Program-made: the position numbers and the translations under genes
Part shown: positions 4,806 through 8,277 of the stretch, one piece after another
Numbering within the stretch: the stretch's first letter is position 1
How the letters are laid out: each line of letters starts with the position of its first letter
Origin: a virus
Reading direction: 5' to 3' (one strand)
IMG/VR virus record: IMGVR_UViG_3300017770_000205
Coordinates: 1 to 21,862 of that record
DNA: 21,862 nucleotides
The notes under the pieces: model-generated
What the model was told of the DNA's origin: nothing
Database searches by the model: none
Seen by the model: only the letters and a program-made list of their open reading frames with translations

Positions 4806-5189
4806 ATGGGAGAAGAACAGAAATTAACATATCTAGCTGATGCATTACTAAAACTTAAAGAGCAGGAAGAAGCTTTGAGAGATATAGGTAAACGAAATCC
4901 TGAACAAGCAAGTGCTATACAAAATATATTCGCTGCATTCGAAAATATAGATATGGTAGTTGAGATAGAGAAGTTAATGTCTGTTATCTCTCTCATAAAA
5001 GATAATATAAAAAAAGCAAAAGGTTATAACAATTTTTCTGAATCTGAATATAGTAATGATAAGAATAAAATATTTAATATTAAATCAATTATAATATCTA
5101 CTAATCAGATAACAAAAAATCAAAAAAAGATTGTTAATAAAATTTATAAAAAACATCTAAATATCCAGAAGATTTTGAAAGATAACTAG
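4806..5189 (+). CDS. Hypothetical helical protein, 127 aa, just upstream of tmRNA
   Basis: I do not recognise this 127-residue protein. Residues 1-75 form charged helices likely to make a coiled coil (LTYLADALLKLKEQEEALRDIG). The C-terminal 50 residues are rich in Lys, Asn and Ile (NKIYKKHLNIQKILKDN), giving a basic tail. The stop codon ends only three bases before the first paired base of the tmRNA, so both are probably on one precursor from promoter 5 and the RNA is released by processing. Whether the protein has any role in the tmRNA system is unknown; it has no resemblance to SmpB that I can see. Confidence 0.65.
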   Translation: MGEEQKLTYLADALLKLKEQEEALRDIGKRNPEQASAIQNIFAAFENIDMVVEIEKLMSVISLIKDNIKKAKGYNNFSESEYSNDKNKIFNIKSIIISTNQITKNQKKIVNKIYKKHLNIQKILKDN

Positions 5190-5340
5190 ATATTTATATT
5201 TGACCGCTAGTACTTGTATTAGCTGCTAATCTGGACCCGGGTTCGATTCCCGGCATCTCCACCAAGTGACAACTTACAATATGGGGATGAATGGTATTGA
5301 CAGGTAGTAAGGGTATAAGGAAGGTCAACCGCGTTTAACT

Positions 5341-5373
5341 GGCGAACAAGTTGAAATGGCGATGGCTGCCTAG
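5341..5373 (+). other. tmRNA proteolysis-tag reading frame, GEQVEMAMAA-stop
   Basis: The tag frame reads GGC GAA CAA GTT GAA ATG GCG ATG GCT GCC TAG. A small hydrophobic Ala-Ala end is what ClpXP-type degradation tags need (compare ALAA in E. coli), and ten encoded residues is the usual length. The five bases before the resume codon are TAACT, keeping an A at -4 like A86 of E. coli tmRNA. Glycine as the resume residue is known, for example in Bacillus. The stop lies in a hairpin, TGCCT 5367-5371 / AGGCA 5376-5380, as in the P5 helix of standard tmRNA. Confidence 0.8.
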
Positions 5374-5390
5374 ATAGGCACTCATACCAA

Positions 5391-5422
5391 ACGACAAACA
5401 GGGATCATGTCGTAGAAATCCC
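5391..5422 (+). other. H-type pseudoknot of the tmRNA coding piece
   Basis: Stem 1 is ACGACA 5391-5396 with TGTCGT 5408-5413 (6 bp). Stem 2 is GGGAT 5401-5405 with ATCCC 5418-5422 (5 bp). The interleaved order makes an H-type pseudoknot with loops of 4, 2 and 4 bases. It lies downstream of the tag, where tmRNAs carry PK2-PK4. Only one such pseudoknot is visible. Confidence 0.7.
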
Positions 5423-5453
5423 GGAGGATAGAGGTTAAGTATAAAGAAAAAAA

Positions 5454-6098
5454 ATGATTGAACAACTAACATATGGCTCATTAGATATAGATGACTTATT
5501 TGATAAGTCACTACCAGATACACTGTTCCAGTACTCTGAAGAAGAGGTTGAACAGTTTCATGAAGGGTATAGTTATGAGATGAATAAACTTATGTTAGAG
5601 AGTGTATCTAGAGCAATACGTAGCGGTGGTATGGAACATGAAGGTATGGAACGTATGGAATCGATCATACAATTCTTACAAACACTTACTAAAGAAGATC
5701 TACAGATATTTGAAAAACATATGGAAGATTTTGCTGCAACAAATCCAAATATGTTATGGAATATGTTACACAGTAAGGATAAAAAACTATATAAAACACC
5801 AGAGAAATTTTACTACTGGTTATCAAATATAACAGATAACAATATAGATAAATATATTTATAGGGCTGCAGATGGCAAAAAGCTCCATTCAGATGATATG
5901 TATATAAAAGAACCGGTTACTAAAGTTGAAATTTTAGATGGTTATATAGCTGTTAGTTCATCTAATTTAGATGCTTTAGACAAATTTAAAGAGCGAATTA
6001 TGATTTCTAATTCTTGTACTTATGATCATAGAATAAAAAAACATAATGGTATTACAATACATAGTTATGTATTTAATATGAACAAAATTAATAATTGA
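5454..6098 (+). CDS. Hypothetical phage protein, 214 aa
   Basis: I do not recognise this 214-residue protein. It is acidic and largely helical in the first 130 residues (EEEVEQFHEGYSYEMNKLMLESVSRAI, then a Met-rich MEHEGMERMESIIQFL). A mixed alpha/beta C-terminal part follows (YIKEPVTKVEILDGYIAVSSSNLDALDKFKERI). There is no membrane segment, signal peptide or metal site. The ATG lies nine bases after the closing helix of the tmRNA. The only purine-rich site, GGAGG at 5423-5427, is too far upstream to act as a normal ribosome binding site. The gene may be expressed from the message left after tmRNA processing. Confidence 0.65.
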   Translation: MIEQLTYGSLDIDDLFDKSLPDTLFQYSEEEVEQFHEGYSYEMNKLMLESVSRAIRSGGMEHEGMERMESIIQFLQTLTKEDLQIFEKHMEDFAATNPNMLWNMLHSKDKKLYKTPEKFYYWLSNITDNNIDKYIYRAADGKKLHSDDMYIKEPVTKVEILDGYIAVSSSNLDALDKFKERIMISNSCTYDHRIKKHNGITIHSYVFNMNKINN

Positions 6099-6947: not shown

Positions 6948-7526
6948 ATGAAAGATAGTACACAAATGTTCTTAATGATTGCTATCATATTTTTAGCATC
7001 AATATATTTTACGATTATGGCAGTTGATTATGAGAGAAGATATGAGATGTTAGAACAGCGCAATCAAGTACAGAAGTATACGATAGATAGTTTACAAATT
7101 ACTATTGATACACTTGAGTATAGATTAGAAACATATGATATTAAACATCAGTATAACGAAATTAAACGAGAGATTAAAGAAGTTATTGATGCTATAATTT
7201 TTGTAGAGAGTGGTGATAATGATAACGCTTACTGTGAGCCTGAAGATGCTGTAGGATGTTTACAAATTAGACAAACAATGGTTGATGATGTTAATCGTAT
7301 ACTAAAAAGAAAAAAATCTAGTACACGCTATTCATATAATGATAGATGGGATAGAGAGTTATCTATTGAAATGTTTAACATATATTGTAATTATTATAAT
7401 TTAACTACAGCGGAAGAAATGGCAAGATGTTGGAATGGTGGTCCGCGTGGTTATAAAAAGCGAGCAACACAAGTGTATTGGAATAAAGTAGAATTAAAAT
7501 TAGAGGAAGCATATGCATCTAGATGA
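6948..7526 (+). CDS. Membrane-anchored lytic transglycosylase-like endolysin
   Basis: This 192-residue protein has one hydrophobic N-terminal segment (residues 7-26), a coiled-coil linker (about 28-80), and a C-terminal domain that fits the SLT/lysozyme-like fold. The likely catalytic glutamate is Glu87 in FVESGD. The AVGCLQI at 101-107 matches the G-L-M-Q-I loop of SLT enzymes, and WNGGPRGYKKRATQVYWNKV from 162 matches the N-G-G-P-x-G...T-x-x-Y-x-x-K-V ending. SLT enzymes cleave the peptidoglycan glycan strand. The N-terminal anchor makes it look like a signal-anchor endolysin or an exolysin held in the inner membrane. It could act in lysis; a virion role is less likely because it lies outside the tail module. 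It overlaps the next gene by 14 bases. Confidence 0.75.
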   Translation: MKDSTQMFLMIAIIFLASIYFTIMAVDYERRYEMLEQRNQVQKYTIDSLQITIDTLEYRLETYDIKHQYNEIKREIKEVIDAIIFVESGDNDNAYCEPEDAVGCLQIRQTMVDDVNRILKRKKSSTRYSYNDRWDRELSIEMFNIYCNYYNLTTAEEMARCWNGGPRGYKKRATQVYWNKVELKLEEAYASR

Positions 7527-8277
7527 AAATAAAATAGTAGAAAATTGGGAAACGCTAATAAGTAAAATTAACGGCAACTTCTCAGACCCACGTAGAAAGA
7601 AACTTATAGAAATGTATGAATTCTTTCAAGATAGAATGATGTTAATGCCTGCGTCAAGCTTTGAGCATTACCATAATTGCTTTGCTGGCGGTTATGTTGA
7701 TCATATTATTAGAGTAATGGATTGTGCACATAAAGTATATCATTCATGGAAAGATATGGGATCTGATTGTTCAGGATATACGTATGAAGAGCTAATGTTT
7801 GCTGCACTTAATCACGATTTAGGTAAAGTAGGTACTCAAGAGTTTGAAATGTATAAACCTAATCCATCGGAATGGCATAGAAAAAATCAAGGTAAGATTT
7901 ATGAAATAAATCCTGATATACCTTTTATGTCTGTACCTGATAGATCTTTATTATTACTTAACGAGTTTGGCATAACATTTAATCAGAATGAAATGATGGG
8001 TATTAAACTGCATGATGGTTTATACGACGACTCTAATAAGCCATATTTTGTAGCATTTAGACCAGAATCTAGAATGAGAATTAATTTACCTATTATACTT
8101 CATCACGCTGATCATATGGCTAGTCAAATAGAGTATGAAACGTGGAAAGGAAGCAACTCAACAGCTATTAAAGAAACTAAAAAGGTAGCTCGTAAAGCTT
8201 ATAATAATAAAACAGTAAGTGGTGCTAATGATTCTGCTAAAGATTTATTTAAAGATTTATTTGGAGACACTAAATGA
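7513..8277 (+). CDS. HD-domain phosphohydrolase-like protein
   Basis: This 254-residue protein carries the HD-superfamily metal site: His64 in GGYVDH, His101-Asp102 in ALNHDLGKVG, and Asp200 in HHADHMAS. HD enzymes are metal-dependent phosphohydrolases acting on nucleotides or nucleic acids. Between the second and last ligands sits an extended insert (residues 110-165) with conserved-looking aromatic residues. The substrate cannot be deduced. A nucleotide-related role is common for HD proteins in phages, but this one is not close in length to dGTPase or YfbR families as far as I can see. It overlaps the preceding gene by 14 bases and the next by ATGA, so its synthesis is tied to the operon. 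Confidence 0.85.
   Translation: MHLDENKIVENWETLISKINGNFSDPRRKKLIEMYEFFQDRMMLMPASSFEHYHNCFAGGYVDHIIRVMDCAHKVYHSWKDMGSDCSGYTYEELMFAALNHDLGKVGTQEFEMYKPNPSEWHRKNQGKIYEINPDIPFMSVPDRSLLLLNEFGITFNQNEMMGIKLHDGLYDDSNKPYFVAFRPESRMRINLPIILHHADHMASQIEYETWKGSNSTAIKETKKVARKAYNNKTVSGANDSAKDLFKDLFGDTK

Follow-up and report, generated by a model that had tools for sequence, protein, structure and literature searches.

Identification of a permuted tmRNA gene in a phage contig

Whether a phage can carry a tmRNA gene with its two halves in permuted order and, if so, what such a gene does and where it came from, are the questions raised by the locus studied here. Permuted tmRNA genes have been described from three main bacterial lineages. 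The window analyzed is an entire virus record of 21.9 kb and includes phage baseplate wedge genes, which agrees with the preliminary description of this DNA in placing the gene on a phage contig. The same description had proposed a permuted, two-piece tmRNA, and two programs bear this out. ARAGORN reported a permuted tmRNA at 5170-5464 on the plus strand, with the tag GEQVEMAMAA*, as the only RNA gene within the window, and the Rfam search that had been suggested gave a match to RF04321 at 5212-5373 (71.2 bits, E 3.7e-12), clearly above the cut-off of 47 bits for this merged alpha/beta/cyano permuted model. In both results the 3' tRNA-like half precedes the 5' half. None of the clade-specific models (RF01849/50/51) was above its cut-off over the gene; the older beta permuted model was the only one listed (48.3 bits vs a cut-off of 84), and it matched the tRNA-like part only. 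The permuted tmRNA gene in the window was thereby confirmed as real.

On the basis of ARAGORN, RF04321 and an alignment of homologues, the entire gene was placed at 5202-5428, with approximate ends (all features are on the plus strand). It opens with GACC (5202-5205), the 3' strand of an extension of P2 and approximately the 5' end of the acceptor piece, followed by the other 3' strands of P2 (5213-5233), of which 5213-5220 pairs with 5312-5319 and 5229-5233 with 5301-5305. The T arm (5237-5253), supported by RF04321, the fold and covariation, has a 5-bp stem and the 7-nt loop TTCGATT, and is followed by the 3' acceptor strand CATCTCC with the discriminator A and an encoded CCA (5254-5264). 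Between this CCA and the 5' acceptor strand lies an intervening segment of 18 nt (5265-5282), whose removal is predicted. The 5' acceptor strand GGGGATG (5283-5289) forms 7 bp with 5254-5260, including G3-U70, and leads into a D-loop region (5290-5300) with the UUGAC signature common to Flavobacteriales one-piece tmRNA and then into the 5' strands of P2 (5301-5326; fold and covariation). The tag frame called by ARAGORN (5341-5373), from the resume codon GGC to the stop codon TAG, is conserved in homologues, and a hairpin surrounds its stop codon (5367-5380; fold and covariation). An H-type pseudoknot (5391-5422), composed of 5391-5396/5408-5413 and 5401-5405/5418-5422, showed the strongest covariation.

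Conservation of the RNA structure

To assess these helices, we used an alignment of 11 distinct homologues, all from viral contigs and about 80% identical. Across them, 98% of cells pair and 10 of 46 pairs have changed on both sides, four of these in the second pseudoknot helix by itself. None of 500 shuffles matched these pairing and covariation measures, and slid structures fell to about 45% or less. The G3-U70 acceptor pair, a mark of tmRNA for alanine, is kept in 11/11 homologues. Both this alanine identity and the CCA end are present in the window RNA; several homologues lack an encoded CCA and have CACTA or CACA instead.

Most of the helices described earlier were thus recovered (acceptor 7, T 5, P2 5 + 8, tag hairpin, pseudoknot 6 + 5 bp). 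The exception was a 13-bp helix said to close the RNA: only 64% of its cells pair, which does not exceed the level of shuffled sequences, the window's own sequence is the only one in which its energy is clearly distinct, and its 5' strand shares positions with a promoter-like motif, ATATTTATA. This helix was therefore rejected. The conserved partner of GACC at 5202-5205 is GGUC at 5323-5326, which extends P2 in 11/11 homologues. Because of this pairing and the lack of conservation of the closing helix, the gene, first drawn at 5193-5445, is indeed located there but is better bounded at about 5202-5428.

An optional gene behind a promoter-like motif

The motif ATATTTATA (5190-5198, plus strand) immediately follows the upstream gene's stop codon. 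It recurs upstream of several further window genes and is also kept in related phages without the tmRNA. Close relatives (L015-L017, L019, L024, L032 and L033) carry the RNA at the identical locus, and it was found in further viral contigs (L053-L063 and the divergent L040). Other relatives of the phage (L022, L025) have an empty site, in which the next gene begins immediately after the upstream gene's end and ATATTTATA. Covariance model R1, which found L040, gave no match in the empty-site relatives. Since the same locus is occupied or empty among relatives, the tmRNA is an optional gene behind a pre-existing promoter-like motif. A DUF805b match near the tmRNA position in the tmRNA-less L022 and L043 comprised only 33 nt and was no tmRNA. 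Within the window, a motif TATTTATA, mostly in the form TATATTTATA, was observed at 2250, 2425, 2701, 5191, 6664, 11148 and 20827, shortly upstream of genes, and this repeated motif is perhaps the late promoter of the phage. The late promoter of T4 is TATAAATA.

Affinity to one-piece tmRNAs of Flavobacteriales

One-piece tmRNA was over the cut-off in 60 of 61 sampled Bacteroidota genomes and in 38 of 40 genomes from the order of a Flavobacteriales MAG, and a permuted gene in only one of 398 genomes of the same order. This lone permuted case (L219 in genome G467) lies in a prophage-like region among phage genes for a helicase, a polymerase and an exonuclease; chromosomal genes, for example that for glycerol kinase, are found farther away, and the host genome's own tmRNA is one-piece. 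L219 is similar to the window RNA in its permuted order, its D-loop type (UUUUGAC) and its neighboring phage genes, but its interval (103 nt) and tag (GKVIQMNNAPVRLAA) differ from the 18 nt and GEQVEMAMAA of the window. Those Bacteroidota matches of model R1 that were checked proved to be one-piece genes or tRNAs. In one Flavobacteriales MAG, a second one-piece tmRNA with the tag ADTSVLALAA was observed on a 14-kb contig (L115; G002:C23:6000-8400), possibly of phage or foreign origin.

Several features were then compared between the phage RNAs, Flavobacteriales one-piece tmRNAs and permuted references. The U of the D-loop motif UUGAC, which reads UUGACAG in the window RNA, is present in 20/22 Flavobacteriales sequences and 9/9 phage RNAs vs 0/37 permuted references, and the main permuted search pattern left this base free. 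Around the resume codon, the phage RNAs matched Flavobacteriales at a mean of 10.6 of 15 positions vs 6.9 of 15 for the permuted references; the best mean TLD identities were 0.85-0.86 and 0.80, respectively. With a combined profile, all nine phage RNAs scored higher for Flavobacteriales than for permuted tmRNA, whereas a TLD-only weight matrix without the D-loop column placed the window's own family between both profiles. The permuted references themselves formed no clade in TLD trees (59 columns), and the AU test of the phage RNAs together with the permuted set (p 0.03) is uninformative, since even alone the permuted set is a poor fit to one clade. Flavobacteriales one-piece genes (L124-L153; D-loop UUUGACAG or UUUGGAC, tags GE..YALAA or GEYNYAMAA) share with the phage RNA the D-loop, the GE-type tag start and the resume context, but differ from the window gene in being unpermuted and about 360-400 nt long. 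In its D-loop, resume-codon context and tag, the phage RNA resembles Flavobacteriales one-piece tmRNA and not the three permuted bacterial lineages.

How this combination arose is less certain. We tentatively consider a fourth origin of permutation, in which Bacteroidota phages would have captured a one-piece Flavobacteriales tmRNA that then spread in marine viruses and diversified into forms with 10- and 37-aa tags. It is also conceivable, if somewhat doubtful, that the gene descends from the alpha, beta or cyano permuted lineage via another phage and that its Flavobacteriales-like features (D-loop, resume context and tag) are a later adaptation to a Bacteroidota host. The permuted order common to all, the good match to the merged model RF04321, the match of the beta model to the tRNA-like part and the intermediate TLD-only score of the window family are consistent with such descent. 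However, separate features (D-loop, resume context and profile) agree with Flavobacteriales, and the D-loop U was absent from all permuted references despite the base-free search pattern. A fourth independent permutation is plausible but no firmer than that, because the RNA is short and the tree tests are uninformative.

Proposed function in trans-translation

Together, these observations are very probably explained by a functional virus-borne two-piece tmRNA of Flavobacteriales TLD and tag character, which would serve trans-translation with host SmpB in a Bacteroidota host. Beyond the structure, covariation, tag conservation and sequence affinity observed, we infer a course from transcription and processing through charging, SmpB use and tagging to proteolysis. 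A precursor, probably transcribed from the ATATTTATA motif, would fold and then be cut both next to the CCA and ahead of GGGG. The resulting acceptor piece (about 5202-5264) and coding piece (about 5283-5428) would stay joined through the acceptor helix and P2. Host AlaRS would charge the acceptor with alanine, and the RNA would enter stalled ribosomes with host SmpB during infection, add A-GEQVEMAMAA and release the ribosomes; the AMAA end would probably route the tagged product to host proteases. No SmpB gene was found in 16 related phage records, two of which are complete genomes, so that use of the host SmpB is likely. Phage-supplied trans-translation with host SmpB is, from what the sequences suggest, the likeliest function, and the earlier proposal that the phage supplies its own tag is probably right.

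Other explanations of the gene fit the data less well. TLD-only RNAs such as that of phage DS6A can inhibit tmRNA (PMC4131195), and with a phage seemingly lacking SmpB the RNA might likewise act as a decoy, titrating away SmpB or blocking the tmRNA of the host; we regard this as unlikely, given that the tag frame, the hairpin at the stop codon and the pseudoknot, superfluous for a decoy, are conserved and AMAA is invariant in the 10-aa tags. That the locus is a degenerate relic or a chance fold, as its short, AT-rich sequence, the relatives without an encoded CCA and the several relatives without the gene might suggest, is hardly credible in view of the compensatory changes and the conserved tag at about 80% identity.

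Tag diversity and the wider virus-borne group

Tags of the relatives read GEQVE[MYL]AMAA or GAQVEYAMAA, and the divergent L040 has GETVHMAMAA; all 10-aa tags end in AMAA. Two scans of viral contigs for permuted genes with this D-loop gave 54 and 9 contigs, although the set retrieved with the TTTGAC pattern, being biased on this base, was not counted as evidence for it. On newly fetched contigs, ARAGORN made 42 calls, all of them permuted; a few pattern matches, including L271 and L275, were not tmRNAs. Thus, the window RNA or its close kin is present in dozens of viral contigs. Most true members have 10-aa GxQVExAMAA tags, and at least eight contigs (L245, L246, L255, L260, L278, L281, L282 and L284) have a 37-aa tag, G[KT]Q[VI]...FA.L.AIR.L...E.V...E.V.AMAA, of constant length between contigs; that of L248 has 36 aa. 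ARAGORN gives wrong or partial tags for these long forms. Such natural 10- and 37-residue tags offer a way to test the role of phage tmRNA in ribosome freeing, protein recycling or re-addressing.

Two further groups were observed. A second Bacteroidota-type permuted group (L219/L236 in G467, L274, L294, L295, L296 and L298) has tags resembling GKVIQMNNAPVRLAA or GKTIQMFPQQLRAVV, and its intervening segments are mostly longer. In a separate group from viral contigs (L002-L014), the tag is ANSNQYALAA, and a tRNA-Gly(tcc) gene frequently follows at a distance of about 2 kb.

Comparison with known permuted phage tmRNAs

The preliminary description named no phage example of a permuted tmRNA. Such genes have been published, however: two-piece forms account for 53 of 133 unique phage tmRNA structures, and the ssrA of Methylophilales phage Melnitz, which has a glutamine riboswitch, falls with those of Alphaproteobacteria (PMC9004378). 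Like the window RNA, those of Melnitz and its relatives are phage-borne, permuted and marine, with a complete tag, but the window RNA has affinity to Flavobacteriales, and no Rfam riboswitch was found in the window. We also confirmed permuted genes in isolates (Synechococcus phages S-CAM1 and S-CAM3, Mesorhizobium phage Cp1R7A-A1 and Alcaligenes phage QDWS595), which differ from the window RNA in their D-loops (UCGAC vs UUGAC), tags (ANTSD..., VAAND... and ANDN..., respectively, vs GEQVEMAMAA) and intervals (4-5, 93 and 74 nt, respectively, vs 18 nt).

Pattern scans of viral contigs revealed many permuted tmRNAs; a strict alpha pattern found nothing there, nor did a TGAATGG pattern in bacterial genomes. 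The proposed search for the same RNA in phages succeeded in viral contigs, whereas blastn against 50,697 phage records gave short matches only and no full homologue in an isolate. A Bacteroidota-type virus-borne sub-lineage was not found described in the searchable literature, outside which most subscription papers lie. Hence, permuted phage tmRNA as such is known, and what seems new here is a virus-borne sub-lineage with Flavobacteriales-like sequence. If true, such a group would imply that phages can give rise to gene permutation or carry it onward.

Phage relationships and host

Among isolates, the nearest are phages of Flavobacterium and Microcystis, and the window phage is distant kin of the Flavobacterium 'immuto' phages. 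When large relatives were compared at the DNA and protein levels for clues to the host, they showed only weak kinship, with 'immuto' and Microcystis phages; L266, a large contig of the group, has proteins in common with both, as does the window phage. MAG bins holding distant relatives were inconsistent and belonged to more than one phylum. Because the TLD and tag character of the group is of the Flavobacteriales one-piece type, the RNA, together with the distant phage kinship, suggests that the host is most likely a member of Bacteroidota. The type of tmRNA may thus help to indicate the hosts of uncultured marine phages. Elsewhere in the window, we observed genes for a MoxR-like AAA+ ATPase (271-1425), a weakly GNAT-like protein (1591-1995), a protein with weak SLT-transglycosylase similarity and a hydrophobic stretch at its N terminus (6948-7526) and a metal-dependent phosphohydrolase (7513-8277).
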